Shown here piece by piece: positions 1 to 32,696 of a DNA stretch of 32,696 nucleotides (positions are counted from its first letter, which is position 1; every line of letters begins with the position of its first letter). The translations under genes were made by a program, and so were the position numbers. Source of the DNA: Cytauxzoon felis (taxonomy: Eukaryota > Apicomplexa > Aconoidasida > Piroplasmida > Theileriidae); assembly GCA_020283715.1 (NCBI GenBank), contig JAIQCW010000074.1:1-32696 (forward strand), in the 5' to 3' direction. The notes below the pieces were generated by a model. It was not told the origin of the DNA and did no database searches. It saw only the letters and a list, made by a program, of their open reading frames with translations.

Positions 1-297
1 AGTTCCACCTAAGGTCGTCTTGCAGATAGCTTCCTTTATTTATCTCCCCCTTCGCTTCCCTGAGATCGGCTACGGGTAGTCCACTTGAGGTCTCCACTTG
101 AGGTCCAATAACTAAACTTCTGCCACGATCTCTGGGAGTGGCTTTACTCTTTAGAGATAGGTAATTGGAAGAAGCCTCCACGGCGAGTGGAACAGTAGTT
201 GTAACCTCAAGTGGAGAGCTGTCTGCAGGACTAACCTCGGATGGAGTGGAATCAGTGGTTGGACATCGAGTGGAGGTAACCTCGTGTGGAGGTGAAT
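1..297 (-). repeat. REP-A copy 1, in frame in IleRS
   Basis: Dispersed modular repeat, read here in the sense of the host gene. It has the [20 protein letters not shown] module followed by the PVADLREAKGEINKG module, bounded by CCACYTGAGGT-like arms. It follows the KMSKS loop. Near its end one extra base relative to other copies changes the frame of the last module, which nevertheless stays open to the window edge. Confidence 0.9.
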
Positions 298-3200
298 ATA
301 TGTTAGGTGTTTTACGTTTATTATTTTGTTTACTTTTGCTAAATTTTTGTTTATATTTATCTACAACGAATCCGTGTGTGATGATATTTTCTACGGGTGT
401 ATTATTATTAGTATTAAGTAATGTATGAAGTATAATGATAGATTGATACCATCCTCGATGTTGATCTTGTCCTTCAATAGCATAAGTAGCTTTAATTGGT
501 CGATTAATAATGAAATCGAGATTAGGTATAGTTTTATATTTATTATTATTTTGAATTGCAATTTTTATCAACCTATTAAATACATTATATAAACTATAAT
601 TTGTATATAACCATGATAAACCAGACTCAAACCATATGTCAAATATATCAGATGTACCTCCACCACCAGAGGTTACATCTCCACCTGAGGTCATTCCACT
701 CGCCGTTCCACCTGAGGTCGTCCTGCAGACAGCTCCTTTATTTATTTCCCCCTCCGCTTCCCTGAGATCAGCTACGGGTTGTACACCTGAGGTTACATCC
801 AACACATCCTTAGCACCATCTTCCATCATTCCCATGATGGATGATCCATCACTACCTTCACCACGATCTCCGGGAGTGGCTATACTCTTTAGAGATAGGT
901 AATTGGAAGAAGCCTCCACGGCGAGTGGAACATAGGTTGGACTGTTGTTAGAGGTAACCTCAGGTGGAGTGGATTGGACATCGTTTGGAATATTGATTCC
1001 CCAATATCTTTGTCTACTGATGCACCAGTTATATTTTCTATTGAGTATGGTATTATAGATATAATTTTTTGATGATTGTGGGTACATATTGATATGATTG
1101 AGTGTATCGATGAATTTATCTTTATTTGAGATGTTCAAGCACCATTGTTTTGTTAATCTAACATGTGTTGGGTTATAGAATCTCCAATCACAATTTATTG
1201 GTATTGATTGTTGTTGATATTTAATTAAATTCTCATTTAATATAATTTTCAATAGATTGGGATTAATTATGGAAATATGTTTACCATCGACTAATGGATG
1301 TATACCAGAATAATAATATTCATTTTTATCTATTAAATTGGTAAAGGTTATGTTTTTATTATTAATCAAATAAAAATGATTTATATTATGCGCTGGATAT
1401 AAATGTATAATACCCGTAGATGGAGGAAGTTCCGATGAACGAAGTGAGGGAGGAAGTGACGAACGAAGTGAGGAAGGAGGATCCGATGAAGGAGGAATTT
1501 TCGACGTGGGTAGAATTTTCTTCGAGGAAGAAAAATTCTCCGATTCAAGTGGGGAACGGGGAAAATTCTTCAAGGAAGGAAAATTCTTCGATGAAGAAAA
1601 ATTAGCAGCAGAAGTGTCGGTGACATCAATAACTTCGTTGCCTTCGCTAGCATCGATGATATTATAGATATTATTATATATGGGATCATAATATTTTAAT
1701 CCTATTAAATCACTTCCATTAACATCAGCAATTTTATCATCATCATTAAATAATTTTATATTATTATTATTAGATATAATATAACCTATATTATTAATAT
1801 TATATATAGAATATATAATATTCTTATCAATACCTAATCCTTTATTACCAAATATAGTCCAACCCATATCTGTCCATATAATAATTTTATATTTCTTAAT
1901 ATTATATCTATTAAATATATCATTATCAATTATTAAATCAAATGAAATATAATATGTCATTATATTTTTAGATTTTATTATAATCTCTGAATCTGATAAT
2001 ACAGATTTTGATAATGTACTATAATGTTGTGGTAATATATCCCTATATATCAAATTCCTATCCTTTAACTTCATAAATGTATCAATAATCATCTTCTCAT
2101 AATCTTTATGATATGTAGCGTAATAGTCATTCCATAACGCCCATATACCGAATTTCTTAAACATCGACATCTGATCATTAATACAACCACTAACATACTC
2201 ACTACATCTCGATCTTATCCTGTTAATCCTATCTAAATCTGAAGACCCATCCAACTCTTCTCCACTACCACCCGAGGTCTTTCCACTAGGCGTGGAGCCT
2301 CCTCTATTTACCTCACCCTCAAACTCCCGTAGATCGTTCTCGGGTTTTCCACCTGAGGTTTCCACTTGAGGTCCAGTACTGTTCCTCGTCTCATGTTCTT
2401 CCGGATTGACATTATTTAATACAGTTGATGAATTATGGGTAATATCATGAGGTAATTCTACATTATAGTGTTTTTTATCCCTACATTCCCCCACATTACT
2501 ATCTTCATTACCTGAAATATTCCACTCAAAGTCCAATTCAGCTCTCTCCAATCCACCTGAGGTCGTCCTGCCGTCAGCTCCTCTATTTACCTCCCCCTTC
2601 GCTTCCCTGAGATCAGCTACGGGTAGTCCACTTGAGGTTACATCCAACACATCCTTAGTACCATCTTCCATCATTCCCATGATGGATGATCCATCACTAC
2701 CTTCCTCACTGCCACGATCTCCGGGAGTGGCTTTACCCTTTAGGGATATGTAATTGGAAGAGCTGTCTGCAGGACCAACGGTGGAGGCGAGTGGAACGGT
2801 TGTTGTAACCTCAGGTGAAGAGCCCTCTGCAAGAGGATCAGACGTGGATTGGACCTCAGTTGGAGAGTTCACATCACTTCGTTCATTATCGACTCCTCCT
2901 CCATCGTCGTGTCCTTCTTCATTCATAATTTTAATTTCAATTGGTATTCCATGGCAATCCCAGCCTGGTATCATGATAGGTATATTATTATTAAGTAATA
3001 AAAATCGTAAAATTATATCTTTAATAGTCTTATTAAGAAAATGACCATAATGTAATCTACCATTAGCATATGGAGGTCCATCAAGTATAATCTTCACATT
3101 ATTAAATAATTCTTCAATATTATTAGACTTATCCAAACCTAATTTAATCCTCTCTATACATATCTTCTCATAAATATTATTATCATTCCAATATTTTTGT

Positions 3201-3670
3201 ATCCTAAATTGCCTTTCTAAACCAGCCTTTATAATATTCATCGTTTTAGGCCATATTCTTTTAGGTAAGTTGATGAAGTACAAGTCAGCAGATGATTTAA
3301 TGGTGTCTGATGTATTGAAGTCCTCAATACCCCTTGGTATATGAGATTGAGAGTCTTCAATACTATTCGATACATGAGAGTTTTCAATACCATCCGATGC
3401 GTGAGGGTCTTCAAGATCACTCGACACATGAGATACTTCAATACCCTTCGATACATCCGACACAGTAGAATCCTCAACAACATCCGATTCATTTACATCA
3501 TTTAAATACAATTCATGACATCTAAATCGTTTCTTATCATCAATAATATGGTATGGGTTCATAAATAAAGATCCATTCGATGTCTTTAACACCGATATCC
3601 AACCATATACACTCCATATGTCCAAGACCGCGAAAATTTTTATTAAAATTATAAATCCTAATATAAACAT
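1..3670 (-). CDS. ileS: Isoleucyl-tRNA synthetase, bacterial (organellar) type, 3' end beyond window
   Basis: Charges tRNA-Ile with isoleucine; probably in the apicoplast. One uninterrupted frame runs from ATG at 3670 to the left edge (1223 codons, no stop). Class Ia motifs appear in order: DGPPYANGRLHYGH (HIGH region, residues 197-210), then PGWDCHGIPIEIK, WCISRQRYWG (882-891), DIWFESG (1011-1017) and KFSKSK (KMSKS loop, 1109-1114). The PGWDCHGxPIEIK form is bacterial-type. The start opens with a hydrophobic stretch (MFILGFIILIKIF), fitting a secretory/apicoplast leader. HIGH and KMSKS lie about 900 residues apart; about 540 is usual in bacterial enzymes. The excess is in-frame REP-A copies (about residues 266-372, 431-470, 896-1006, and from 1126 on) plus low-complexity segments (about 60-120 and 687-751). 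Splicing out of the repeats cannot be excluded but is not needed to keep the frame. Lies 86 bp downstream of the gene at 3756-4825. Confidence 0.9.
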   Translation of the reverse strand, partial: MFILGFIILIKIFAVLDIWSVYGWISVLKTSNGSLFMNPYHIIDDKKRFRCHELYLNDVNESDVVEDSTVSDVSKGIEVSHVSSDLEDPHASDGIENSHVSNSIEDSQSHIPRGIEDFNTSDTIKSSADLYFINLPKRIWPKTMNIIKAGLERQFRIQKYWNDNNIYEKICIERIKLGLDKSNNIEELFNNVKIILDGPPYANGRLHYGHFLNKTIKDIILRFLLLNNNIPIMIPGWDCHGIPIEIKIMNEEGHDDGGGVDNERSDVNSPTEVQSTSDPLAEGSSPEVTTTVPLASTVGPADSSSNYISLKGKATPGDRGSEEGSDGSSIMGMMEDGTKDVLDVTSSGLPVADLREAKGEVNRGADGRTTSGGLERAELDFEWNISGNEDSNVGECRDKKHYNVELPHDITHNSSTVLNNVNPEEHETRNSTGPQVETSGGKPENDLREFEGEVNRGGSTPSGKTSGGSGEELDGSSDLDRINRIRSRCSEYVSGCINDQMSMFKKFGIWALWNDYYATYHKDYEKMIIDTFMKLKDRNLIYRDILPQHYSTLSKSVLSDSEIIIKSKNIMTYYISFDLIIDNDIFNRYNIKKYKIIIWTDMGWTIFGNKGLGIDKNIIYSIYNINNIGYIISNNNNIKLFNDDDKIADVNGSDLIGLKYYDPIYNNIYNIIDASEGNEVIDVTDTSAANFSSSKNFPSLKNFPRSPLESENFSSSKKILPTSKIPPSSDPPSSLRSSLPPSLRSSELPPSTGIIHLYPAHNINHFYLINNKNITFTNLIDKNEYYYSGIHPLVDGKHISIINPNLLKIILNENLIKYQQQSIPINCDWRFYNPTHVRLTKQWCLNISNKDKFIDTLNHINMYPQSSKNYIYNTILNRKYNWCISRQRYWGINIPNDVQSTPPEVTSNNSPTYVPLAVEASSNYLSLKSIATPGDRGEGSDGSSIMGMMEDGAKDVLDVTSGVQPVADLREAEGEINKGAVCRTTSGGTASGMTSGGDVTSGGGGTSDIFDIWFESGLSWLYTNYSLYNVFNRLIKIAIQNNNKYKTIPNLDFIINRPIKATYAIEGQDQHRGWYQSIIILHTLLNTNNNTPVENIITHGFVVDKYKQKFSKSKQNNKRKTPNIYSPPHEVTSTRCPTTDSTPSEVSPADSSPLEVTTTVPLAVEASSNYLSLKSKATPRDRGRSLVIGPQVETSSGLPVADLREAKGEINKGSYLQDDLRWN
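653..984 (-). repeat. REP-A copy 2, in frame in IleRS
   Basis: Full-length repeat lying between the WCISRQRYWG and DIWFESG motifs of IleRS, a place where the family varies. It gives [15 protein letters not shown], a serine/methionine-rich SDGSSIMGMMEDG segment, then [15 protein letters not shown]. The frame before and after the insert is the same. Confidence 0.9.
1420..1610 (-). repeat. Low-complexity tandem repeat in IleRS
   Basis: Short imperfect tandem units encoding Ser/Pro/Lys-rich NFSSSK and PPSSLRSS runs, residues about 687-751 of the synthetase. Unrelated in sequence to REP-A. Typical of simple-sequence expansion in surface loops. Confidence 0.7.
2257..2382 (-). repeat. REP-A copy 3 (short variant), in frame in IleRS
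   Basis: Short copy with only the left half. It carries the alternative core (CCCGTAGATCGTTCTCGGG type), encoding ENDLREFEGEVNRGG, next to the CCACTAGGCGTGGAGCC cassette. Read in the same frame register as the longer copies. Confidence 0.85.
2549..2868 (-). repeat. REP-A copy 4, in frame in IleRS
   Basis: Full-length copy placed soon after the PGWDCHG motif. It encodes NYISLKGKATPGDRG, then the same SDGSSIMGMMEDG segment seen in copy 2, then PVADLREAKGEVNRG. Copies 2 and 4 are the only ones in the window that share this middle segment. Confidence 0.9.
3310..3490 (-). repeat. Degenerate tandem repeat near IleRS N terminus
   Basis: Imperfect units of about 30 bp encode repeated SHVSxxIEDS-like decapeptides at residues about 60-120, between the leader and the catalytic core. 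Probably a disordered linker; no known function. Confidence 0.65.
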
Positions 3671-5896: not shown

Positions 5897-6186
5897 TACT
5901 TCCACCTGAGGTCGTCTTGCAGACAGCTTCTTTATTTACTTCCCCCTCCGCTTCCCTGAGATCAGCTGCGGGTCCACTCGAGGTCCAATCATTACGTCCA
6001 CCTCTTCCACTCGCCGTGGTGGCCTCCTTATTTACCTCACCTCGACTCCCATAGATCGTCTCGGATAATTCGCCACGATCTCCGGGAGTGGCATTGCCGT
6101 TTACGGGGAGTGAATTGGAAGAGCTGTCTGCAAGACGAAGAGAGTTGGATTGGACCTCAAGTGGAGAGTTGGATTGGACTGCGGGT
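5897..6186. repeat. REP-A copy 5, intergenic
   Basis: Copy between the convergent genes uL6m and SF3B6. It shows the TCTTGCAGACAGCT cassette, the CCCTCCGCTTCCCTGAGATC core, the CCACTCGCCGTGG cassette, the CCACGATCTCCGGGAGTGG module, and an inverted AGCTGTCTGCAAGAC cassette at the right end. The sense peptide frame is on the minus strand. Confidence 0.9.
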
Positions 6187-6786: not shown

Positions 6787-6860
6787 GCCTCCGTGGCGCA
6801 ATTGGATAGCGCGTTGGACTTCTAATCCGAAGGTTGCGGGTTCGAATCCCGCCGGTGGTA
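6787..6860 (+). tRNA. tRNA-Arg (anticodon UCU)
   Basis: Full cloverleaf. The D arm is GGCGC...GCGC, the anticodon stem-loop TTGGACTTCTAATCCGA places TCT at the anticodon, and the T arm is GCGGG-TTCGAAT-CCCGC. The acceptor pairs GCCTCCG with CGGTGGT, with one internal T-T mismatch and a G-T end pair. No intron; A at the discriminator position. A-box and B-box promoter sequences are internal. Confidence 0.93.
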
Positions 6861-7429: not shown

Positions 7430-10400
7430 ATGGTTCTGTTATCCTTTGTTAGAAGTATATTATTACTTATTATACTTAATATCGCAAATAATTTAAAAGT
7501 GGTTTGTATTCACGATGTTCATGAAGCTCATAAGGTTTGTTTACATAATTTTTAAATTTAAAATTTTTATAGTTGTCTATTCTGGAGGTGGGCAAGGCTA
7601 AATTTGAGTTGAGTGTCTTATCTAACTTGGAAATAAAAGAATATGGAACTTTTGATTTCGCTTCTCCACTTAATGGAAGATCTATTAGGATGTGTGGAGT
7701 ATTAGTTCCGAGAGACATTGAAATTTATTTTAGGATTCTTTCATCACCTGTATTTCATCAAAGGCCGTATAATTTATCACTACCGGCTGATAGTACTTTA
7801 TTACAGCAATTAGGTTTATCGAGTGATGTTGTATTTTTATCTGAAAATGATCCAGTGTATAAAGTTATAGTTTGTATATTAAGGAATGAAATTTCAGTTT
7901 TACGTTACATTAAAGATCATCATAAATCTAAACAGACGTGGCCTACATATTTAGATAACAAGGCTGCATATGCGAATTTATGGCATAATGCCCGAAATTT
8001 GTTTAAGGTTAAGCTTCCATTATATTCATTTATTGATGATTCTAATTATGTTTATTATATTACTAATGATGGTAAATATTTAAAATATAAATATAAATTG
8101 AAATTTGATTACAATAAGTACCAAAATTTGGCTTTACTTTTAGGTTATTGGAATACTGATGTGATTAAATTGAGGAGATATTATATTAATAATTTGGAAT
8201 CATTATTGAATGATGTAGATAGATCTAATTATCCTATGGATTTTTTTGAGATATTGGATGGAGATGTTGATATAATTAAAGGTATAGAATGGACTGGTGG
8301 TTTATCATGGGATGAGGCTATGTTAATAGAATCTAGGCGTATTGCAAAGATTAGTATAAGATTATTATATCATGTATTACATAAGATGTTGAATTCTCAT
8401 GGTATAAATGGTTATAAAATACAGCAAACAAAGAATAAATTGTATCATATACGATTATGTTCTGATGTACTTTTACAAATACGTACTTTATTGAATCATT
8501 ATACTTTAAATATAAAAATGTATAAGAATGTAAAGGAGACTCCTGTAATTAATGAGGATGTTGAGGAGTTATTATTTGAATCAGTTCCAAAGTATAGTAT
8601 GTATTGGAATGTTAAGAATGATTCATTATATAATAGGAATTCTTTACATGATATGACAATTGAACAACTGACTGCTAGTGTATTGGACAATTTAAAATTT
8701 GAACCTAATAGTTTTTATAATGAATTGGGTAATATTAGTGGTGAGGAGGTAGATTTTAAAAGGGTTTATGATATATTACTTATGTTAACTCAGGGTACTA
8801 CAGATGCTACAAGGATGTTATTTAATATTAAGAGGAATACATCTAATGTTGTAACTGATATTGTAGATATTGTAAATGAACAATATAAAGCATTACCTAA
8901 TTCATTAAATAAATTATTACGTGCACGATCTAAATGTTTAATGGCATTTTTATATTTATTTGGTGTTCCTGATAAGAAGGGACGATTAAAATTTCCTTAT
9001 GGTTGGCCTCGTGATGATAAACGTGCTATAAAATTATTAATATCAGGTATGGGATCAAAATGTGGTTTATGTAATTCTATATTGGGATTTTTATCTGCAA
9101 TAGGTTATCCACCTATATCTAATAATATGTTTGCATGGGAGATGAAGAAAAATAATGATGAGACTACTGTATATCAATTATTAGCCTCTAATATATTTGA
9201 TGATAATGAATATATAGTTGGTCGTAAAGGTTTTGATTTACCATTATTATCTTATCTAAGTGGTAGTTATAAACATGATGAGATATCATCATTAGCATAT
9301 GGTTATTATATATATAGTGGTATAAGTAATGTATCCAGAACATGTGAATATTCATCACACTCAAGTATTAATAGACCACTTAAAGATGTTGGCTCTAGAT
9401 GTCTTGATGCTATACCATATATTATAGATGCTGCTAAATATGCTATGAAGAATCGTCAAACAGATCAATATCAAGAAGCTAGTGATGAATATAAGAGTAA
9501 AAAATATGCCGAATTTGTTAAAAAATTAGCTAAAATGGGTGATTCTGATGGTTTACGTATGCTAGGTGATTTTTATTATGCTGGACATGAAGAAGGTGGT
9601 ATAAGAAGAGATTATCAACAAGCATTACATTATTGGAGATTAGCAGCTGATAATGGTGATGCATCATCAGCATTAGCTGTTGCACATCATCATATTACAT
9701 TAATGAATGATGATAATGATCATTCATATCATGCTGAACGTTATTTAAGAATGATTATTAATTCATCTGCTAATAATTCATCAACAGCAAAATTTTATTT
9801 AGCAAGATATGGTTTAGGACAACCTAAAGATCCTATATTAGCTGCTAGATGGTTACGTGAATCAGCTGATCGTGGTGATGTTAATTCACAAGTATTAATG
9901 GGACATGCATTTGCTGGTATATTAAATGATGTAACACCAGCTGAAGGTAAAAATATTTTCATGTCATTTTATTATTATCGTAGAGCAGCTAATAATGGTA
10001 ATATAGTAGGTCTATTTAATTCAGCTGTATTTACATTACATGGTTATGATCTAGGATATGATACACCACATAGTCGTTGTAATGCAGCATTCAAATTATT
10101 CTCTAAAGTTGGTAGAATGGGTACAATACCATATGCTATCAAATCATTATCTAAACGCTTTAAACAATTTGATGATCATATTGGTTATGCATTAACAAAT
10201 ATGTTTCTATCAGAATTTGGTGATCCAATTGCACATGAAAATACATCAAAATATTTCAAATTTAATAATAATTTATGCTTTATACCAAATAATGAAATCA
10301 TACAAGATAATAAATTGAATCTTGAAGATGGTGATGATGGAACCATCAATAATCCATGCCATTATTATTATAGTAGAAGATCAGCTTATGATCATGATTC

Positions 10401-10878
10401 TAATTCACCTTTATTATTAGCTGAAGCACTAGTTAGTGGTATACCATGGGATCCTATCGAAGCATTAAAATGGGCTAAAGAATCTAATAATAAAAATGAT
10501 GTTAAAGGTTCATACATGTATGCTACAATGCTAGAAGCTGGATTAGGCACCACGAAAAATTGTAATGAAGCATTCCTCATCTTTAAAAAATTATTAAATT
10601 CTAAAATACAAACCGAACGTATATTAGGACTCTTGTGCATTATCAGGAGTAAAATTATATCCTTCTTCAAAAATCATAATCTCATATACTCAATCATCGT
10701 ACACACACTCTATGATAAATATGCCATACACTCAATCAATCATGATAATTATACACCATGCAATTTCCCACTACTACAAGAACGACCAATCGTCATCAAT
10801 GGAATCAGATTAATCACAATCGTATATACACTAATACTAATACTAGTTATATTCGTCTATATCAAAACCATCACCTGA
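7430..10878 (+). CDS. HRD3: SEL1L/Hrd3-like ER membrane protein, two exons
   Basis: Probable luminal adaptor of the Hrd1 ubiquitin ligase in ER-associated degradation. Exon 1 (7430-7534) encodes a signal peptide (MVLLSFVRSILLLIILNIA). A 38-nt intron follows, then exon 2 (7573-10878), 1136 residues in all. The frame from 7573 alone would begin at TTG right after a splice acceptor, so the upstream ATG is preferred. SEL1 repeats lie at residues about 690-870 and 990-1045, with units such as QQALHYWRLAADNGDASSA, ILAARWLRESADRGDVNSQ and IEALKWAKESNNKNDVKGS. The C terminus has a single membrane span (about 1112-1133). The N-terminal half (40-680) is divergent and rich in Asn/Tyr/Asp. Type I topology with a luminal repeat domain fits Hrd3/SEL1L. 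Other SEL1 proteins are possible. Confidence 0.8.
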
Positions 10879-10948: not shown

Positions 10949-11064
10949 TAGTCCTGCCGTCAGCTCTCCACCTGAGGTCGTCTTGCAGACAGCTCCTCTA
11001 TTTACTTCCCCCTCTGCCTACCGTTAGTCGGCTACGGGTATTCCACTTGAGGTCTTTCCTTCAT
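10949..11064. repeat. REP-A copy 6, partial, intergenic
   Basis: Shortened copy 3' of the Hrd3-like gene. Contains both GTCCTGCCGTCAGCT and GTCTTGCAGACAGCT cassettes, then a diverged core (CTCTGCCTACCGTTAGTCGGC in place of the usual CCGCTTCCCTGAGATCAGC), ending at CCACTTGAGGT. The rest of 11065-11338 is AT-rich and empty. Confidence 0.85.
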
Positions 11065-14164: not shown

Positions 14165-14283
14165 TACCACCTGCCACCACTTGAGGTTAGAGTCCTACTC
14201 TCTTCGTCTTGCAGACAGCTTCTTCTAATTACATCCCCCTCAAACTCCCGTAGATCGCTCTCGGGTAGTCCACTTGAGGTCTG
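14165..14283. repeat. REP-A copy 7, partial, intergenic
   Basis: Short copy downstream of the VESA-like gene, with the CGTCTTGCAGACAGCT cassette and the alternative core CTCAAACTCCCGTAGATCGCT. The AT-rich stretch between 13958 and this copy has no gene. Confidence 0.85.
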
Positions 14284-14409: not shown

Positions 14410-15439
14410 AGCTGATCTACATGTCCTCAGGGAAACCTGTTTGCGAGAGAAAGCGAGGATAAATCTTACATAGAATAGTTCCAACCCGGTATTGCTGATA
14501 CTTCTCAAATTCCTAACCCTAAAGGCCTAAAGAAAGTTCAGGTGAAGAACGAGAAACTGCTGATGCTCCTCCTCCTCCTGAAACTCCTCAACCTATAGAC
14601 CATAAAGTATGGTTGAGTAAGATCACTATGTTCATTTCAGTTATATGTAAAGTATATATGGTTGTAATAGGATTTTTATTTCTACTGATATAGGATTCGA
14701 TATATCGATACGCAAGCAAAAGCTGATCCCGGTGGTAGTAAAACATCCATTGATTTCGGCACTTTTTCTGGAGGTAATGAACAAGATGATGCTGATAAAG
14801 AAGAGGCAAATAAAGGTATCGATAAACTTTTTTACAAAAATCCCAGTGCTACTCTTACTGAAGGTCAGGATACTGGACATGCTATGGATTGGTCACCTAT
14901 ATCTATGCTCGCTTGTTCTCTAGACTCTCTATACTCCTTTAACCAAACCCCGGAAGCGGGGACGGATACAATAGTAATGATCCAAATGATAAAGGTATTT
15001 TTCAGAATATTAGATACAATTGGTATGATAAACCTGAATGGAACTGTTTCTGGATTGCGGCAATACCTTATGTCCTATGTCTCCACATTTTCATCACTAT
15101 GATCCATTTTCCTGATGGTTTCATTGCAACCTTTCTGCGCTCAGACCGCGACTATTACAAGCTATCTGTGTATCCTTTAATTTCTGGCAAGAAATTTTAG
15201 AGATTGTAGGCTTTTCAGCCGCAGGAAAACAAAGCAACCCTTATGGTGTTATCAAAAGAAAAACTAGTCAAAGTGAACCTGATGAACCTACGGAACAGAT
15301 TGAATATAATGGAGATGTGATACAACTCCACTCGAGGTCCAATCCAACTCTGTTTCCACTCGGCGTTCCACCTGAGGTCAGTCCTGCCAATTACCTATCT
15401 CTAAAGAGTAGAGCCACTCCCAGAGATCGTGGCGGTTAA
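14410..15439 (+). pseudogene. Degenerate protein-coding relic ending in a REP-A copy
   Basis: Readable protein segments lie in different frames without clean splice junctions between them. Examples are a Pro-rich piece near 14550 (ADAPPPPETPQPIDHK) leading to a hydrophobic stretch, GGSKTSIDFGTFSGGNEQDD onward at 14730-14950, RYNWYDKPEWNCFWIAAIPY near 15020 in another frame, and FWQEILEIVGFSAAGKQSNP near 15190 in a third frame. The last segment runs on into REP-A (ANYLSLKSRATPRDRGG) and stops at 15437-15439. Base composition is less AT-rich than the neighbouring genes. This looks like a decayed copy of a multigene-family membrane protein. The family is not identified, and a gene with unrecognised introns is possible. 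Confidence 0.45.
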
Positions 15440-15565
15440 GAATATAGTTATTGGACCTCAAGTGGAAAACCCGTAGCTGATCTCAGGGAAGCGAAGGGGG
15501 AGGTAAATAGAAGAAGCTGACGGCAGGACGAAGAAAGGTTGATTGGACCTCAAGTGGACTAGACA
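15326..15565. repeat. REP-A copy 8, inverted
   Basis: Copy in the orientation opposite to copies 1-7, so the sense peptide frame is on the plus strand. It joins the end of the coding relic in frame, then continues as the GTAGCTGATCTCAGGGAAGCG core and the AGAAGCTGACGGCAGGAC cassette, ending 47 bp before the exonuclease stop codon. Confidence 0.88.
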
Positions 15566-15611: not shown

Positions 15612-17340
15612 TCACTTTGTGATTGCATCCCATTTGTAGGAAGTTCTGCTGAGTGAAAAAAGTCGTAGAAATGCATTAAATTGTGATGTAAGTGTATTTG
15701 ACTTCAAAAGTTGATCTGTAGTATCGAGTACATGTACATTTTTACGTAATCTGACAATACTATGGAAATCATGAGCCATTTTAATACTCTCCTCATATTT
15801 ATCACCCTTGGCTGAGAGTTTATTAATTTCTTCTGAGTTTATAATCTCCTATACCATCAACAAATACAACTACACTAAACTCACATCAAATGTCTTGTAT
15901 TTTTCAATCAATTTGGGTGCAGTCTTTGGGCCTATACCCATAATCCCAGGTATATTATCCGAATGATCACCAACCAATGCCAAATACTCACTAAAACGCT
16001 CCGGATCAACACCTATTTAAAAATACACATTAAGTTTATAAAAAAAGTAGAAAACATTCATTTCCAATCACCATTCCACACGAGGTCCAATCCACCTCCA
16101 CCTGAGGTTACAACCTTGTTTTCGTCTTGCAGACAGCTCTTTTAATTACCTATCTCTAAAGAGTAATGCCACTCCCAGAGATCGTGGCAGAGTGAAGGTA
16201 TTGATGTAACCTCAAGTGGAACCCGCAGCTGATCTCAGGGAAGCGGAGGGATAGGTAAATAAAGGAGCTGTCTGCAAGACGACATCAGGTGGAACGGCTA
16301 GTGGAAGAGAGTTGGATTGGACTTCAGGTGGAGAAGATAGACATACCGTATTCGTTTCTGACATGTTCTTCGGTGACTATTCTATATGCTTTATGTGGTT
16401 GTACTATGCGGACATGAACTCCATTTCTACCGTTGTTTGATAAAATTTGCATTAAATCCTTATCGGATGTCACTACTGTAACTTCATATCCAACATCGTT
16501 CAATTTACGGCGATAATCAATGGGTTCTTCGGGTGATGTTGCGATTGGTTCATTTTTTATTTGGGTTGGTGATGTATAATTCATTCTGTTGGTTTGTTCA
16601 AATTTATCGAAAATTCCTCGCGTCGTATTCTTTTCAAAATCAATCGTCTTCATAAAGGAATCCTTACTCTTATTAAAATCACTGTGTTCATCAATACTAT
16701 CACCACGTAGGAAATTTATTATACTCGTTATTATATCATCAGCTTCTGTAGCTTTTTTAATGAATGCTGGTAGACCTAAGATTGAACACAATTCACGTAT
16801 CCATGAAATCTGATTCTTAAAAGAAGTAGTTACAACTTGACGATTCAATTTATAAGCTGGCCATACCTCACGTTTAGTATCATTTGATCCTGGAGAATCA
16901 AAGACTAAACCAATATATTTAGGTGAATATAATTTATATAATCGTGTCAATGTATTCATAAAACCCATTAAACAACCAATATCACTACCTCTAAATGTCT
17001 TTATTTCAGGTAAGGCAAAGAAACATCGATAAGCTAGACCAGTAGCATCAATCAATAAAACTTTATCAGGTGTATCATTACCGACAGAATATAATGTGAA
17101 AGAATTACCCATAATCGTCTTTAAATTGATGAATGACATACGTAAACGCCTGTTGATTTCAGAAAATGAAAACTTATCCGCACGGATTCTTCCATCTTTA
17201 AGACTAGAGTTGCGATGTGTAAAGTCCATATAACAATTAATCAATCTTCCATAACTTGAAGTGGTATTTTCAATATTAACTGCGGGTGTATTATTAATAA
17301 AAATAATACAAAACCACGTTGATATAATTTTAATAAACAT
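15612..17340 (-). CDS. PolI-type 5'-3' exonuclease with N-terminal leader, three exons
   Basis: Exons 17340-16347, 16012-15885 and 15848-15612 join in phase (452 residues). The introns are 334 nt, holding REP-A copy 9, and 36 nt. The fold is the PIN-like 5'-3' exonuclease of bacterial PolI, without a polymerase domain. Motifs are LLIDATGLAYRCFFAL (about 95-110), FDSPG with YKLNR (147-167), KATEADDI (197-203), TSDKDLMQIL (291-300), then across the intron GVDPERFSEYLALVGDHSDN and IPGIMGIGPKTAPKLI, the helix-hairpin-helix. Key acidic residues are present. A low-complexity insert of about 70 residues separates EADD from SDKDL. The N terminus (MFIKIISTWFCIIFIN) is a signal-like leader followed by a polar stretch, fitting apicoplast targeting. 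Likely role: primer removal or repair of organelle DNA. Confidence 0.9.
16073..16332. repeat. REP-A copy 9, in exonuclease intron 1
   Basis: Lies entirely between donor (16346) and acceptor (16013) of a 334-nt intron and is antisense to the host gene. It has both arms (CCACCTGAGGT near the left, ACTTCAGGTGG at the right), the AATTACCTATCTCTAAAGAG module, the GATCTCAGGGAAGCGGAGGG core and two cassettes. Confidence 0.9.
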
Positions 17341-18103
17341 TAAACCATTATAAATATATAATCTGACCTGGATTCCAGAGCCCTTGGGTTATGTAACATA
17401 AATTAGACAAGTGTTCAAGTCAATGAAAATCATTTTTTATCTCTCCCAAGACATTAATATACTTGCTAATATATATATCTTCCTCGATAATTGAGGAATT
17501 TTCCTCGGATTCCATTCAACTTTATACACATTAATTTCATGGCCAACACTTTAATATATTTTTTACGTTCTAGATAGATTAATCTCAACAATATCATCAT
17601 ATATTTATAATTTTATTGCATTAATCCATTTACTTTATTCGATATCTATTCATTACACATTATATCAGTAGTCCTGACGACGACATAAACTCAAGGCTAA
17701 GACTAGAGAAGGTCCAATAACCTTTTATCATCTTGCAGAAAGCTATTCATCACTTGAGATCCTTTATCTTCCACTCGCCGTTCCACCTGAGGTCGTCTTG
17801 CAGACAGCTTCTTTATTTATTTCCCCCTCCGCTTCCCTGAGATCAGCTGCGGGTAGTCCACTTGAGGTCCAACTCTCATTACATCTTCTACTTCCGCCAC
17901 GATCTCCGGGAGTGGCTTTACTCTTAAGAGATAGGTAATTGGAAGAGGCAACACGCCTAGTGGAAAGACCTCAGGTGGAGAACTCTCTGCAAGAGTAAGA
18001 TAGTTGGATTGGACCTCATGCGAAGAGCCGTCTACAAGACCTACGGTAGACGTGTATTACAAGGATACTCCATCAACTTTCTTCACATTTCATCATTGTT
18101 ACA
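17341..18103. other. Intergenic region between divergent genes
   Basis: 17341-17710 is AT-rich with no gene seen; it must hold the promoters of the divergent exonuclease and WD40-like genes. The remainder is REP-A copy 10. Confidence 0.5.
17711..18042. repeat. REP-A copy 10, intergenic
   Basis: Full copy preceded by a broken cassette (TCTTGCAGAAAGCT at about 17740). Contains the core, the CCACGATCTCCGGGAGTGG module, the CACGCCTAGTGG cassette and a right cassette. It ends about 60 bp before the start codon of the WD40-like gene, so it forms part of that upstream region. Confidence 0.9.
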
Positions 18104-21050
18104 ATGTATTCTTATCTCGCTAGACGTAAGGTATATGGTGATTGTTTACCATGTAGTTTAAAGATGAGTCAAAATACATCATATATATTAGAAAAGGCTG
18201 TATGTAATCAATATAACAATGTGAATTGATATATATATGGATGGTATATATATATATTATAGGTGATGAAGATTGATGTATTTGCTGATTTACCGGATTA
18301 TTATCCATCTTGTTGTTATGATAGGAGAGATGTTAAAGAGATTATATTTACTGATGATATAGTAGCTATATTGTAAGATTAGATTATTATATTGAAATAT
18401 GATTTAGATTATCATCTGGTATTGCAAGGGCATTTGATAATGTAATTGAAAAAAATTTTTCCGTTTAAAATCACATCATTATAGATTTCAGGAGTATTGA
18501 AATGTGAATTGAATCCTATAACTAATACATCAAAATTTTCATGTATGTTATAAAGAGTCTATTAATGATACCATTCCTTCAGATGTTCATACTCTTGTAT
18601 ATAATAATGAAAATAAGACAATTATTATTGCATATGCTTCTATACCTTGTCATTTACAATGTAAAGTTGTATATTGTGAAGTAATTTTATCTAATAGATT
18701 TGAAATTTATTATTTTTAGTTTATAAATAAAGGGAAATTGATATCACCTAGTTATAGTTTTAATTTTGAACAAGTTATATTAAATCATCCAGCATTTTTT
18801 GAATTTTGTGGTAATATATTAGAACTGATATAATAAATTAATTATATTAGAATCCAATAATAGAATTGGTGCTGCAAATTTAATAGAAAATAAATATTGT
18901 TTTTGGGTGAAATTGAATATTAATAATTTAATTGATGGTTAATAGGATATGAAAACATATAAACATATTTTCCATATTAATGGGGAAAATTATCAAGGTA
19001 TGTTATTAATAATGGGGTTAATTAACACCATAATTTTATTATTTAGAAATTAGGTATTGATAATAATGATGAATGATACATAACAATAATATAATAGAGT
19101 ATCTGATGGTTTAGTAGCTATGATTAATCAACCAATAAATAATATTATCCCCATTTCATTATTTGATATTGAAGATGGTAAAAAATTAGTTAATATTAAT
19201 ATTAAATTATATATAATCATTATTATCAGATTGATACATCAATTTCAATAATACATAATCGTAATATGCAATTTCTAGAATTATTAGTATCACAATTATT
19301 GGTATATTGTCTTTCTATCACCCTCAACTTGATGTCTAATCCACCTCTCTTGGTCCTACCGTCAGCTCTCCACCTGAGGTTGTCTTGCAGACAGCTTCTC
19401 TATTTATTTCCCCTTCCAGCTCCCGTGGATCGCTTCCAGGTATTCCACTTGAGGTCCAACTCTCATTACATCTTTTACTTCTGCCACGATCTCTGGGAGT
19501 GGCTCTACTCTTTAGAGATAGGTAATTGGAAGAGCTGTCTGCAAGACTAACCTCAGGTGGAGAAGCCACCACGGCGAGTGGAAAGAGATGTGACATGGAC
19601 CTCAGGTGATGGAGCCCTCTTTTTATTAGTTATCCCTCCGCTTCCCTGAGATCAGCTACGGGTAGTCACTTGAGGTGATAATCATACATCTTCATCACTT
19701 CATCATATAATTAATAGCTTAAACAAGAAGGGCATTCATTAAGAGTATTTGATTTATTACGTGGAACATGTCTAGTAATAAAAAATACAGTACAATTAAA
19801 ACCATTTGGATTCATATTCTATGATGTATTGTTATACCCCCCCTTTAATTTTAAATTCTTAGATACCAAAAAATTCACATGTTAAAGTATATAATTTAAA
19901 TGTATACATCGTCTGTTTAAGAAAAATTTTTAAACATCTTAGATGCCTAGACGTTATTTTACAATCTCTAAATCATGTATTGAATTCTGGGAACTTGGTC
20001 CATCACAATTAATTTGTACAAGCATAGTTAATGTAACAGGTATATTACAGTCACCCCCTATATATCTTATTATTATAGGTTTAAATAATCCAGATTTATG
20101 TTGTCATTCAACTATATATAATATACTCTGTATAAAAGCACATAATTCATGGGAAATTGATAACATATCAAATGATTCTACAAATGTTACACCAAGAGCA
20201 CATTTATGCAATTATCTCAATAAAATAACACCAATTAATATAAAAGGTTAAATAAATTATATCCCATTCAATTAAAACATCCATAGATACAACAATGACA
20301 TCATATCTAAAGAAATTTGTAAATGATAACAACAACAACAATTACAATTATGCAATTTTATTCTTCTCACTTGATGATGGAAAATATCTAGGAAAAATAC
20401 CACCATATATATCCGGAAATAATATTGTCTCATTATCATCCTCAAATAACATGAGCGTATGTCATACAAATATATTTATACCTGAGGTCTTTCCATTCGC
20501 CATTCAACTTTTCCTTGTCCTGCCGTCAGCTCTTCTATTTATTTCCCCTTCCAGCTCCCGTAGATCGCTTCCAGGTAGTCCACTCGAGGTTGTAAACCAA
20601 TCTCATCGAGATAAGGATAAAGTGACGGAATCCACGTTTAAGGGGACATCTCAATGAATATAAATTGGAATGAAGTGAGGATGAGTATATTAGATACAAT
20701 CATCAAATTCCTTTTAAATAAAGTATTGAGATCAGATATTCATCCAATAGTCATTCCACAATCTTCATGAGTTTCCCCAGAAATTCAGGAATTTCGTTAA
20801 ATTTTGAGGTAAAAATGAAGTAGTGTAATTAGTAGATATGACCTCAAGTGGAACCCGTAGCTGATCTCAGGGAAGCGGAGGGGGAAGTAAATAGAGAAGC
20901 TGTCTGCAGGACGAAGTGAGGATGGAATGAAGAGTAGGATTTGACTTCAGGTGGATGATAATATTTCGTATATTTAATAAACAACTTCAGAGTATAGCGT
21001 GTGGTACATCAGATGGAACTGTAAAGATAATAAGGAATGATATGACATGA
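18104..21050 (+). CDS. Conserved WD40-like (beta-propeller) protein, 17 exons
   Basis: Exons: 18104-18220, 18263-18372, 18408-18441, 18485-18542, 18583-18680, 18720-18810, 18851-18906, 18946-18997, 19047-19053, 19098-19188, 19230-19301, 19718-19825, 19863-19901, 19943-20039, 20079-20246, 20287-20456 and 20991-21050. All join in phase (475 residues). Fourteen introns are 35-49 nt; two are 416 and 534 nt and hold repeats. The protein matches, by eye, a conserved propeller-type protein known to me from plants and apicomplexans. Landmarks are YGDCLPCSLK near the start, EIIFTDDIVAILLSSGIARA, QEIRVSDGLVAMINQP, LFDIEDGKKLIDTSISI, LLKQEGHSLRVFDLLRG and the last blade ACGTSDGTVKIIRND. Molecular role unknown. 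Least certain points are the exon 4/5 junction and the 7-nt exon 9. Confidence 0.8.
19338..19680. repeat. REP-A copy 11, in intron 11 of the WD40-like gene
   Basis: Inside the 416-nt intron 19302-19717, antisense to the gene. Uses the CTTCCAGCTCCCGTGGATCGC core variant on the left and the standard core on the right. On the minus strand it keeps an 86-codon open frame with NYLSLKSRATPRDRGR and ELEGEINREAVCKTTSGG, although that strand is not the coding strand here. Confidence 0.9.
20480..20955. repeat. REP-A copy 12 interrupted by REP-B, in last intron of the WD40-like gene
   Basis: The left REP-A piece (20480-20593) uses the CTTCCAGCTCCCGTAGATCGC core. The right piece (20837-20955) is in opposite orientation with the standard core. 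About 245 bp of a different repeat (REP-B, 20594-20836) lies between. All of it lies in intron 16 (20457-20990, 534 nt). Without splicing the frame would read into REP-A and stop at 20657, losing the last propeller strand. Confidence 0.88.
20594..20836 (+). repeat. REP-B copy 1
   Basis: Shares long stretches with 28009-28252 (for example AATGAATATAAATTGGAAT and CATCCAATAGTCATT, then CACAATCTTCATG) and with the inverted piece at 32598-32696. Several frames contain stops. Always flanked by REP-A arms. Confidence 0.85.
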
Positions 21051-27720: not shown

Positions 27721-27794
27721 TTATAAACGTCAATCTCGTTATATTCACATTTATAATTTATATCTCAGTCGAAGTTCCATTCCTTCATATCACC

Positions 27795-28400
27795 TTGAGG
27801 TCCAGTCACTACCTTCACCTCTTCCACTAAGCGTGGAGCCTTCTCTATTTAGTTGTCCCTCCGCTTCCCTGAGATCAGCTGCGGGTTCCAGTTGAGGTTA
27901 CATGACTACCTTTTCACTATTACACCTCTTCCTTAGTCTTGCAGACAGCTCTTTTATTTACTTCCCCTTCCAGCTCCCGTAGATCGCTTCCAGGTTCCAC
28001 TCGAGATTAATTCCTAATCTCAGCGAGATACGTTAAAAGTGACGGAATCTACGTTTGTTCGGATTACTCAATGAATATAAATTGGAATTGAGTGAGCATG
28101 AGTAAACTAAATAGAATGATCAAATTCCTGTTGAATGAAGTATTGACATCAGAAATACATCCAATAGTCATTGCACAATCTTCATGGGTTTACCCAGAAA
28201 TTGAGGATTTCCTTCAAATTTTGGAGGTAAAATGAAGTTAGTGAAATTAGTGACTGGACCTCGAGTGGAGACCTCAAGTGGAATACCCGTAGCTGATCTC
28301 AGGGAAGCGAAGGGGGAAGTAAATAGAAGAGGCACCACGCCTAGTGGAAAGATGACGTGGTTGTAATCTCAAGTGGAGTGGAAGGAGTTGGATTGGATAT
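27795..28400. repeat. REP-A copy 13 interrupted by REP-B
   Basis: Left piece (27795-28008) has the TTCCACTAAGCGTGGAGCC cassette with the standard core, then the CAGACAGCT cassette with the CTTCCAGCTCCCGTAGATCGC core. REP-B lies at 28009-28252. The right piece (28253-28400) is inverted, with the GATCTCAGGGAAGCGAAGG core and the CACCACGCCTAGTGG cassette. Same architecture as copy 12. Confidence 0.88.
28009..28252 (+). repeat. REP-B copy 2
   Basis: Near-duplicate of 20594-20836, with small indels and substitutions, in the same orientation and the same position inside a REP-A pair. Confidence 0.85.
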
Positions 28401-28997: not shown

Positions 28998-29329
28998 TTT
29001 ATAAATGTAATGATCACAAACACTACAAAAGACAAAACATGATGGGAAGACTGATATGAACTGATCAAATTTCCATAATAAACAAATTATAACTCAATAT
29101 ATATTCTATATCATCTAAATTTATTGTACTAGGAAAATTATTTATTTAGTTAATGTTAAAGGATGTATAATTTTGATACTCCGTAAAGGCACATAATGAT
29201 GTGAGGTGACTTTTTTGAAGCTACAGAATATTATTGAAGGGAATTTCTGCTACAGTTTAACTAGATGAATGTCAATCAACTAACTTCATCATCTCGTTCA
29301 GTGCCTTCAATCGGATCCTCACTTTGTTA
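28998..29329. other. Tandem-gene spacer
   Basis: Between the UFD1 stop and the CX9C gene start, both on the minus strand. AT-rich; no REP-A, no frame and no RNA signature seen. Must contain the UFD1 3' end and the CX9C promoter. Confidence 0.5.
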
Positions 29330-30652
29330 CTATCCACTACGTTTTACTGCTGGAATCTTCTTAGATCTTACAAGTTTATCAAACTCTTCACAATGTGTCT
29401 AAATAAATATAAAATAAACTTCATCTCTAGACAAACCCGTATCCCAAGGGGCAATTTTTGCAACCATGGCATAGGATTAATTTTTTCCACCTTTTGCTTC
29501 GATATTTTAGGCGTTTTACCATCCAATCTCTTGCCTAATATCTCATCCTTGTCAATGTTATTATCTGATATACGTTTGTCATGTGATGTAGCAATATCAG
29601 TATCACAGCCTCTAGTCGGTATATTCTCAAACTCAACCTCCATATCAGTCTCTATTATAGAACATGCCCTAGCCGGTTTTAAATTCTATATTTATATTAA
29701 TCAAACACAATTCAACTCACAACAATCTCAATGTTGTATATACTATGAATATAATGTACAGGTATCACATCACCAACAGTCAACGTCGCATAGTTCCTCA
29801 AAGCAGTCTCCAATCTATACAGAAAACAATTATCAAGTCCATCGGATATCACTTCCACCTGAGGTTACAGCCTTGTCTTCCACTAGGCGTGGAGCCTTCT
29901 CCATTTACCTCCCCCTCCGCTTCCCTGAGATCAGCTGCGGGTTCCACTTGAGGTTACATCACTAACTTCTCATCGTCACGATCTCCGGGAGTGGCTATAC
30001 TCTTTAGAGATAGGTAATTGGAAGAGGCTCCACGCCTAGTGGAAGAGGTGAAGGTAGTGACTAGACCTCAAATGCACAGACAATATCTAAGTTATAACAC
30101 ATCTTTGTAAACATACACTGCTCTGGGATTTGATATATCCCAGTAATCGTTTGAGAGTGGTTTCAACTTGACCCATGTGGCCTTGGGGAGGGATACATTT
30201 GTAATTGTTACAAAATCTCCTTCATTTAGCTCCAATAATTGCATCATCTGTAATGAGTTATAGAATAATAGAGAGGAATAAATGTACCCAGTATGGTATA
30301 TTACAAGTGCCTTCATCCGATATAAATTCTAATACTCCACCATGGGTAGTCTTTGTTCCTTTTTGATTTTTAATCTCAAATAGCATAGGCCATGATATAT
30401 TTCTACTCGCTAATATATGCAACGTAGATTGAGGTAATAATACTGATGAATGATGAGATGGTGAAACTAGACATACTTTTATTGCCTCTTTCCATAGATT
30501 CTTTACCAGCAAACGATACCGAAAAACAACGATAGGTTTCTACATGAGGTGAAGTATTGTAGAACCCACTAGCATCACCAGACCATAGTGTATTGAATTG
30601 ATTCCAATTCCACTGAAGGGAATGAAAAAAAATATATCGCTCAACTAACCAT
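29330..30652 (-). CDS. UFD1: Ubiquitin fusion degradation protein 1, seven exons
   Basis: Adaptor that with Npl4 recruits ubiquitinated clients to the Cdc48/p97 ATPase. Exons: 30652-30650 (ATG only), 30612-30477, 30442-30288, 30247-30117, 29814-29721, 29685-29437 and 29398-29330 (278 residues, all in phase). Five introns are 34-40 nt; one (30116-29815, 302 nt) holds REP-A copy 14. The UN domain follows the family closely: [79 protein letters not shown] and [18 protein letters not shown]. Then comes [20 protein letters not shown], and a C-terminal LGKRLDGK, related to the family's FxGxGxxLDGK. No apicoplast leader, so this is presumably the host ERAD form rather than the SELMA-type paralogue known in other apicomplexans. 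Confidence 0.93.
29851..30072. repeat. REP-A copy 14, in UFD1 intron 4
   Basis: Lies inside a 302-nt intron, in the sense orientation of UFD1. It has two CACTAGGCGTGGAGCC-type cassettes in inverted arrangement, one at each side, the CTCCGCTTCCCTGAGATC core and the CGATCTCCGGGAGTGGC module. Reading without splicing gives a stop a few codons after the donor, before the repeat. Confidence 0.9.
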
Positions 30653-31705: not shown

Positions 31706-31962
31706 ACACTCTTTCCACTCGCCGTCCCACCGTAGGTTGTTTTGCAGACAGCTTCTCTATTTACCTCCCCTCCGCTTCCCTGAGATCAGCTATGGGTTCC
31801 ACTTGAGGTCCAATCACTAACCTCTTCACCGCCACGATCTCTGGGAGTGGCATCACTCTTTAGAGATAGGTATTAAAAGAGCTGACGGCAGGACTGACCT
31901 AAGGTGGAGAGCTGTCTGGAAGACAAGGATACAACTTCAGGTAGAGGCGGTGAAAAGAAGAG
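31706..31962. repeat. REP-A copy 15, intergenic
   Basis: Between the convergent membrane-protein and TRM1 genes. Standard core, CCACGATCTCTGGGAGTGGC module, GAGCTGACGGCAGGAC cassette and GAGCTGTCTGGAAGAC cassette. Sense frame on the minus strand. Confidence 0.88.
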
Positions 31963-31987: not shown

Positions 31988-32696
31988 TCATTTTCCATTG
32001 TAAATTAGTGATGATGAGACGCTTTTATGCATTTTTTTGGGTCCCCAATAGCTGGTTGGATTAGGCATCCATCTTGCGACATTTTTCTTTTTACTTCGTT
32101 CATTTGTATCGATGACTATATTTTCGGTCCTATTGTATTGATATTATGAGATAGAAATTGAATTACTTGATTTCGGCTTTTAAAAAGTTAAAATTTCCAA
32201 TTTTATTTAGTGTTTTGGCATGTGTTCTAATGATATCCATAATAACACGTGATGGCGCGTTTGTTTTTAATGATTGTGGATCTCTATGGAAATGTGATGC
32301 CTTATAACCCAATTTTTCGAGTGTATTTCTATATTTATAAAATTCATAATATATAAAATATACTTGAATACATATGGACTTATAGTTGGAAGATTCCAAC
32401 GTTGACAAAGCTTTGGTATATGATAATATAATGGATAATCAAGTTCCTATATAATACATGAAATATATCATACTTTCCTTCCACTCGAGGTTCCACCTGA
32501 GGTTACATCCTTATCTTCCACTCGGCGTGGATGCCTTCCTATTTATTTCCCCCTCAAACTCCCAGAGATCGTTTTCGGGTAGTCCACCTGAGGTCCAATC
32601 ACTAATTTCATTTTTACCTCGAAAATTTGAAGTAATTTCATCATTTCTGGGGAAACTCATGAAGATTGTGGAATGATTATTAGATGAATTTCTAAT
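31988..32696 (-). CDS. TRM1: tRNA (guanine26-N2)-dimethyltransferase TRM1, C-terminal part
   Basis: Only the last three exons are in the window: 32446-32364, 32328-32167 and 32129-31988, joined over 35- and 37-nt introns (128 residues). The intron upstream (from 32447) runs past the window edge and holds REP-A copy 16. TRM1 makes N2,N2-dimethylguanosine at position 26 of tRNAs. Matching C-terminal domain features are DYPLYYHIPKLCQRWNL, then LEKLGYKASHFHRDPQSLKT with NAPSRVIMDIIRTHAK, and the closing RWMPNPTSYWGPKK, which corresponds to the PNPxxNWGPK signature near the end of eukaryotic TRM1. The methyltransferase core lies outside the window. A lysine-rich stretch (ERSKKKNVAR) could serve nuclear or tRNA binding. 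Confidence 0.85.
32476..32696. repeat. REP-A copy 16 with inverted REP-B, in a TRM1 intron, cut by window end
   Basis: REP-A piece 32476-32597 has the CCACTCGGCGTGG cassette and the CTCAAACTCCCAGAGATCGTT core. It is followed by an inverted partial REP-B (32598-32696) containing the complement of CATCCAATAGTCATTCCACA-type sequence. This is the third example of REP-B abutting REP-A. Confidence 0.82.

Follow-up and report, generated by a model that had tools for sequence, protein, structure and literature searches.

The window analysed here, that is, the whole stretch of 32,696 nucleotides of the Cytauxzoon felis contig JAIQCW010000074.1, carries a gene for isoleucyl-tRNA synthetase (IleRS) into which four copies of a dispersed, GC-rich repeat are inserted without closing the reading frame. 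The explanation favoured, with a probability of roughly 0.86, is that selfish nuclear repeats built of palindromes are tolerated in exons when they lie in frame, remain part of the mRNA and enter the proteins as translated but unstructured loops. With slightly less assurance, this mosaic palindromic element is likely to be a normal part of the translated proteome, kept open by selection on the frame of the host and still being reshuffled, with about a thousand exonic copies (a rough extrapolation from 47 inserts in a 1.5-fold enriched sample) in about a fifth of the long open reading frames (ORFs), so that unrelated proteins, including the vaccine candidate cf76, would share a peptide.

The gene lies on the minus strand, where a single frame of 1,223 codons without a stop (2-3670) runs to the contig edge, as a preliminary description of this DNA had claimed. 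It encodes a bacterial-type IleRS (Pfam PF00133, E=9e-58; PDB IleRS chains aligned) with its closest database matches in Babesia duncani, Theileria equi and other piroplasms and, being of the bacterial type, is presumably organellar. The HIGH-type and KMSKS-type motifs are 902 residues apart, compared with about 545 in the aligned H. pylori chain, which confirms the longer-than-bacterial spacing of about 900 residues reported before, and the repeat mask recovered the four copies announced between the conserved blocks at closely similar positions. The features of the gene, in the direction of transcription, are the following:

2..3670, minus strand: IleRS ORF, first 1,223 codons, the rest being on contig C41 (ORF list, Pfam, PDB chains, alignment)
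3041..3052, minus strand: HIGH-type motif HYGH, residues 207-210 (sequence, alignment)
2547..2868, minus strand: palindromic element copy 4, in frame; mask 2547-2859 (mask, module map)
2249..2404, minus strand: palindromic element copy 3, partial, in frame, forming a compound insert with copy 4; mask 2249-2404 (mask, module map)
~1425..1640, minus strand: low-complexity in-frame insert of another family, modelled as unfolded, residues ~680-747 (alignment, model)
653..984, minus strand: palindromic element copy 2, in frame; mask 669-979; modules E' P S B M E C T' E E (mask, module map)
332..346, minus strand: KMSKS-type motif KFSKS, residues 1109-1113 (sequence, alignment)
1..297, minus strand: palindromic element copy 1, in frame, truncated by the contig end; mask 12-231 (repeat mask, module map)

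Contig C41 supplies the rest of IleRS: the anticodon-binding part there is likewise open, and one more in-frame repeat copy stands at the contig start; the contig break which splits the gene falls within a repeat copy. Alignment with relatives showed that the catalytic motifs and invariant residues are retained and that the inserts coincide with sites of length variation among the piroplasm enzymes, while in the alignment of PDB chains the conserved blocks pick up again beyond the inserts. When residues 130-1116 were modelled with AlphaFold2, the mean predicted local distance difference test score (pLDDT) was 67 and the predicted template modelling score (pTM) 0.68; 452 of the 987 residues reached a pLDDT of 90 and 397 remained below 50, the core blocks being mostly above 90 and the inserts below 50. 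Three long stretches of low confidence, at model positions 129-341, 551-618 and 774-874 (residues 258-470, 680-747 and 903-1003), were obtained; the first corresponds to the compound repeat insert, the second to the low-complexity insert and the third to copy 2. Ranks 1-19 of a Foldseek search were IleRS structures, with template modelling scores of about 0.4-0.5, a value to be expected when so many residues are unfolded. On the question raised beforehand, whether the inserts fall in surface loops, the model predicts unfolded segments on a confident IleRS core.

Some further peculiarities of the same protein were observed. Its N-terminal region (window 3281-3510) contains, by eye, degenerate short repeats of a GIE.SHVS-like type, of which no further copy was found in the 227-kb sample described below, and its first 23 residues resemble a signal peptide, by look and not by computation. 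Partial matches to the low-complexity insert at 1425-1640 occur on contig C39, including one within a caspase-like ORF; the insert is possibly another dispersed coding repeat.

The repeat was characterized in a sample of 227,463 bp (the window plus loci L029-L048), about 2.6% of the genome, chosen around DNA matches. There, 171 repeat segments cover 33,467 bases, with a median segment of 201 bp and a GC content of 0.51, as against 0.29 in the remainder. The dispersal asserted in the preliminary description was borne out both in the window, with 11 same-orientation copies of one 83-nt repeat piece plus inverted ones, and in the 8.6 Mb of the genome, where 2,335 core 18-mers (at most 1 mismatch) were counted and a reversed control gave 0. 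The element is a mosaic pieced together from short modules, of which several are palindromes, and many copies are partial or compound; in the fuller ones the modules are arranged as E' {T or P or D'} S B (M) E C {T' or P' or D} E. Since the left and right slots pair in all nine of the nine possible combinations, the modules must recombine. Relative to dinucleotide-shuffled sequence, the folding of repeat copies is strong (mean z -4.04, 26/32 below -2), unlike that of non-repeat controls (mean z -0.08, 3/32 below -2).

Repeats also lie outside genes, 107 of 140 clusters not being wholly within ORFs of at least 150 non-repeat codons, and the repeat density is 9% within long ORFs and 20% outside. 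An insert is present in 22 of the 88 long ORFs of the sample, or in 15 of 81 when those touching seed matches are set aside. The contigs that bear the repeat carry nuclear-type genes (MCM, symplekin, histone-fold), and the host ORFs include the methionyl- and prolyl-tRNA synthetases (MetRS and ProRS), in both of which the conserved domains also continue past the inserts, as well as symplekin-like, Der1-like, RRM and caspase-like proteins; 5 of 17 scanned repeat-bearing ORFs had no Pfam match. A FAINT-domain (PF04385) ORF at L041:2377-5313(-) has a short in-frame repeat segment of 97 bp.

The frame of the inserts was assessed by classing clusters on their flanks alone, with at least 100 open codons required on either side. 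Coding flanks on both sides were found for 31 of 137 clusters: 26 in frame and open (26 of the 30 same-strand cases), 4 frame-shifted and 1 between opposite strands. Without the seed clusters, the window and contig C41, 19 were in frame and open, 4 shifted and 1 opposite-strand (19/23 same-strand), and with flanks of 60 codons and the same exclusions the figures were 21, 6 and 2 (21/27). By chance, an insert would be in frame and open with a probability of about 0.013 (0.0128), as calculated from the 18 of 468 frames open in 78 copies of at least 150 bp not wholly in long ORFs, or of about 0.037 by an alternative estimate (0.67 of 6 frames open in non-coding-flanked clusters of at least 60 bp, times 1/3). 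The probability of 19/23 is then about 9e-33 at the 0.0128 null and 7e-12 even at a lenient 1/6. In 3 of the 4 frame-shifted cases the upstream ORF terminates at the repeat edge (offsets -14, +2 and +31), and in 2 of those 3 a new downstream ORF begins. Repeats beginning about 30 bases or less from an upstream stop codon were observed at L042:2198-2411, L047:7833-8161 and L032:8952-9219; repeats may set the end point of some proteins.

Within ORFs, individual modules are read in one frame (boxB 33/33, SNYL 20/20, core 30/32, EVNR 26/28), partly because these copies sit in ORFs and the whole element usually has a single open frame; boxB by itself is open in other frames as well, and T and the short end modules occupy several frames. 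The spacing from B to C is a multiple of three in 26/26 ORF copies, as expected there, and in 29/45 of the others, which suggests that source copies are often coding or that some non-ORF copies belong to shorter exons. Gaps in BLAST alignments showed only a weak frame bias in their lengths (multiples of three in 200/1180 ORF-ORF, 723/6185 mixed and 919/8031 other-other gaps), but such alignments are unreliable owing to the mosaic structure, and module spacing was used instead. Outside ORFs, stops occur in 4/74 and 9/98 module copies.

Evidence for retention in a transcript comes from cf76. All 723 residues of this C. felis protein match the present genome at 100%, at G000:C114:6540-8708 (L049), and its ORF contains two elements, at about codons 178-263 and 583-658. 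According to the available part of PMC3748084, cDNA from RNA that had been DNase-treated and checked for DNA served to amplify the cf76 ORF (2,172 bp) and three fragments, which were then cloned and sequenced, and the gene was called single exon. Of the published primers, the reverse one of fragment 1 and the forward one of fragment 2 fall within the first element, near codons 229-242, and the second element is spanned by the C-terminal fragment. The repeat is thus retained in the cf76 mRNA, as the cDNA-derived single-exon ORF holds two copies and two primers fall inside the first. The same source, as far as available, reports strong seroreactivity for the full-length protein and the C-terminal fragment and weaker reactivity for the other two fragments, the reactive sera for the C-terminal fragment being those of surviving cats (PMC3748084); the word repeat is used there once, of a 30-bp tandem repeat. 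In the C-terminal region of cf76 the paper reports a 30-bp repeat with two copies in ten of eleven samples and a single copy in the remaining one, and it names BioProject PRJNA196611 for the public C. felis ESTs. Of the 1,416 candidates in a database protein search with an IleRS insert as query, cf76 alone carried the repeat peptide, and it was again the single one, among 85, when the repeat part of a different ORF served as query; these searches register a protein only if its length is similar and exact words are shared, and most C. felis proteins seem to be absent from the database, so that they do not show relatives to lack the element.

Several points weigh against the favoured explanation. 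ORFs are delimited by stop codons, which makes the absence of stops from ORF copies true by construction, and 4 of the 30 same-strand inserts are out of frame. No protein-level selection on the insert was seen, nonsynonymous:synonymous ratios being alike inside and outside ORFs (126:64 vs 306:134; 115:64 vs 267:175); since both groups are similar, the insert peptide looks neutral and openness looks to be what selection keeps. The sample itself is enriched about 1.5-fold in the core motif (94 observed, 61.6 expected). In IleRS and in the hosts other than cf76, translation is deduced from the sequence. The seroreactivity of cf76 may be partly due to antibodies against other repeat-bearing proteins, and the serology does not show the repeat to be the epitope. 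Finally, movement by recombination or template switching is a proposal drawn from the pattern of the copies.

The process envisaged is one in which short GC-rich palindromic selfish repeats would multiply in the piroplasm nuclear genome, landing in exons and between genes. A typical exonic copy has a single open frame among the six, and the survivors in exons would be those in that frame and orientation, in loops tolerant of extra residues, and these would stay in the mRNA and be translated as unstructured loops of working proteins, IleRS among them. The spread itself may rest on recombination to which hairpins are prone, on template switching, or on gene conversion from one module to another. 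Recombination or template switching is suggested because the modules are shuffled, no duplications flank the copies, the hairpins are strong and there is a weak excess of local best matches: the best match of a copy lies in the same region in 20/118 cases, as against 10.5 expected (the maximum of 1000 shuffles being 22), and all six copies with a best match at least 95% identical have it nearby. These local matches lend weak support to gene conversion. As for reverse transcriptase, one ORF of 1,010 codons was found on C56, perhaps telomerase.

The most serious competitor, although unlikely, would be a miniature inverted-repeat transposable element (MITE), that is, a non-autonomous DNA transposon tolerated in exons and mobilized by an undetected transposase. 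In fact, inverted 12-mers (E' and E, at most 2 mismatches) occur at both ends of 75/140 clusters, and the internal module order is common to most full copies. Yet in these 75 clusters no target-site duplication of at least 4 bases was found, with 1 of 3 bases (0.72 expected) and 3 of 2 bases (4.05 expected), and the left and right slots mix so freely that longer terminal repeats are often mismatched. The genome gave 0 rve and 0 DDE_3 matches, with positive controls detected; the piggyBac- and Helitron-type searches (PF13843 and PF14214) also gave 0, no positive control being detected for these. Moreover, in the available part of a survey, transposable elements are reported as absent from C. 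felis and class II genes as absent from Apicomplexa (PMC9141347).

That the repeats are introns or introners, spliced out of the mRNA, is considerably less probable. Introns are frequent in C. felis genes (68.7% according to one predictor, 61.7% according to another, in the available part of PMC3748084), any insert of 300 bp will inevitably contain GT and AG, and the 4 out-of-frame cases among the 30 could be taken in the same sense. Nevertheless, spliced inserts need keep neither frame nor openness, whereas 19/23 do where 1-4% are expected, and the published cDNA of cf76 holds two copies; it is because of this excess of open frames and of this cDNA that splicing is judged improbable. Besides, in 3 of the 4 out-of-frame cases the upstream stop at the repeat edge is what would be found between separate genes.

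Still harder to accept is that the inserts are transcribed but bypassed by the ribosome, or excised from the protein as inteins. Hairpin-rich coding inserts do resemble the ribosome-bypassed GC clusters of Magnusiomyces capitatus mitochondria, as described in the accessible portion of PMC8811140, but bypassed segments need not remain stop-free in the host frame, and no intein domain was detected by Pfam (E 0.001) in the 18 repeat-bearing ORFs scanned. It is scarcely credible, either, that this IleRS gene is in decay or wrongly assembled while an intact one exists next to it, a possibility akin to the non-expressed copy that the preliminary description had considered: the contig does terminate in a repeat, and the gene is divided between two contigs, but no second bacterial-type IleRS turned up when the genome was searched in six frames with the enzyme of B. 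duncani (the leftover matches being two weak ones on C4, of 28 and 37% identity, and one on C36 inside a MetRS ORF), the C-terminal half on C41 is open, the catalytic motifs and invariant residues are intact, and other genes show the same insert pattern. Practically negligible is an origin in the usual apicomplexan low-complexity expansion by local slippage, which would suit insert sites that vary in length in other piroplasms and the low-complexity insert of the same gene, but which does not yield the same modules in similar order across unrelated genes and outside genes.

Apart from IleRS, the window contains the following repeat copies, listed without strand (mask and module map unless stated):

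5899..6179: repeat copy outside long ORFs
10951..11055: partial repeat copy outside long ORFs
14177..14282: partial repeat copy outside long ORFs
15326..15561: repeat copy outside long ORFs
16081..16334: repeat copy at the 3' end of the exonuclease-like ORF 16324-17340(-) (ORF list, mask, module map)
17767..18018: repeat copy outside long ORFs
19359..19665: compound repeat copy outside long ORFs
20485..20937: two partial repeat copies (20485-20591, 20840-20937) outside long ORFs
27794..28397: partial repeat copies (27794-28005, 28234-28397) directly 3' of the MCM ORF (ORF list, mask, module map)
29852..30060: repeat copy overlapping the end of ORF 29324-29965(+), not wholly in a long ORF by the 150-residue rule (ORF list, mask, module map)
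31712..31918: repeat copy outside long ORFs
32479..32604: partial repeat copy outside long ORFs

The frame of the ORF at 16324-17340(-), with a 5'-3' exonuclease N-terminal domain (PF02739), terminates at the copy 16081-16334, and the MCM helicase ORF at 24952-27720(+) is free of inserts, with repeat copies directly downstream. The window also holds an ORF of 1,101 codons with Sel1 repeats (PF08238) at 7573-10878(+), a cysteine-rich ORF of 872 codons without a Pfam match at 11339-13957(+), possibly a surface protein, and a tRNA-Arg (TCT) at 6787-6860(+), according to ARAGORN and Rfam.

Rickettsia palindromic elements (RPEs) are single palindromes of roughly 100-150 bp, and insertions like them have been reported from Wolbachia and Methanocaldococcus. 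The preliminary description had taken the repeat for a translated, eukaryotic counterpart of the RPEs, an assertion supported by frame and openness across the sample, by the cf76 cDNA, by the folding and by the placing of the inserts at length-variable sites modelled as unfolded, and modified in that the element is a mosaic of small palindromes, not one hairpin, and in that the translation of IleRS stays at the level of a deduction. As with RPEs, insertion is in frame in conserved protein-coding genes (IleRS, MetRS, ProRS and others of the sample), hairpin potential is strong, here through several small modules, and copies lie outside genes too (the 107/140 clusters). The hosts of RPEs, on the other hand, are prokaryotic, Rickettsiales, whereas here the setting is the eukaryotic nucleus of a piroplasm and the copies are mosaics of exchangeable palindromes with more than 2,000 core motifs; the likeness meant here is one of features.

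The GC clusters of yeast mitochondria offer a parallel which appears at least as close. As described in the available part of PMC8811140, they are palindromic, occur in frame in var1, differ in size between strains and undergo merger, shuffling and gene conversion, and their terminal repeats are regarded as target-site duplications. GC-rich clusters in an AT-rich genome (0.51 against 0.29), shuffling (9/9 slot combinations) and merger (compound copies) are found here as well; the differences are that the present repeats are nuclear, not mitochondrial, occupy about a fifth to a quarter of the sampled long ORFs and show no target-site duplication. The element would thus work like RPEs and yeast GC clusters, membership in neither being claimed. 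Other comparisons are more distant. PARCELs, which occur in bacteria and in some microbes among the eukaryotes, are likewise repeats that code for protein and show dyad symmetry (PMC2996958, in part), but they are 25-residue tandem motifs in ORFs of unknown function, whereas the inserts here appear as single or compound copies and lie in conserved enzymes. The CAG and homopolymeric amino acid repeats of Eimeria are translated, common in the coding regions of that apicomplexan and seemingly without effect on function (PMC7564333, in part), but they are simple trinucleotide repeats and not a dispersed complex element. QMITE1 of Coxiella burnetii, a bacterial MITE, shares with the element short non-autonomous repeats partly overlapping ORFs, and differs in being bacterial, with short direct repeats at its ends and about 50 copies (PMC5896051, in part).

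In the titles and opening lines of abstracts retrieved from the open-access literature, no description of dispersed coding repeats in Cytauxzoon was found. A nuclear, proteome-wide, in-frame palindromic element appears to be new, the bacterial and yeast-mitochondrial cases being already known. It fits poorly with the survey in which, as far as available, no transposable elements were found in C. felis (PMC9141347); the pipeline described there discarded MITE candidates as well as any model that matched annotated exons, and retained a model only where known transposable elements supported it, and this filtering could have removed the repeat family. The element is also relevant for gene annotation and assembly, a contig ending in a repeat in the middle of a gene, and it calls for caution regarding cf76, a vaccine candidate which bears the shared peptide twice, since serology could in principle detect antibodies to other parasite proteins. 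If the favoured explanation is true, the seeding of new protein segments by selfish DNA would become testable in a eukaryote.
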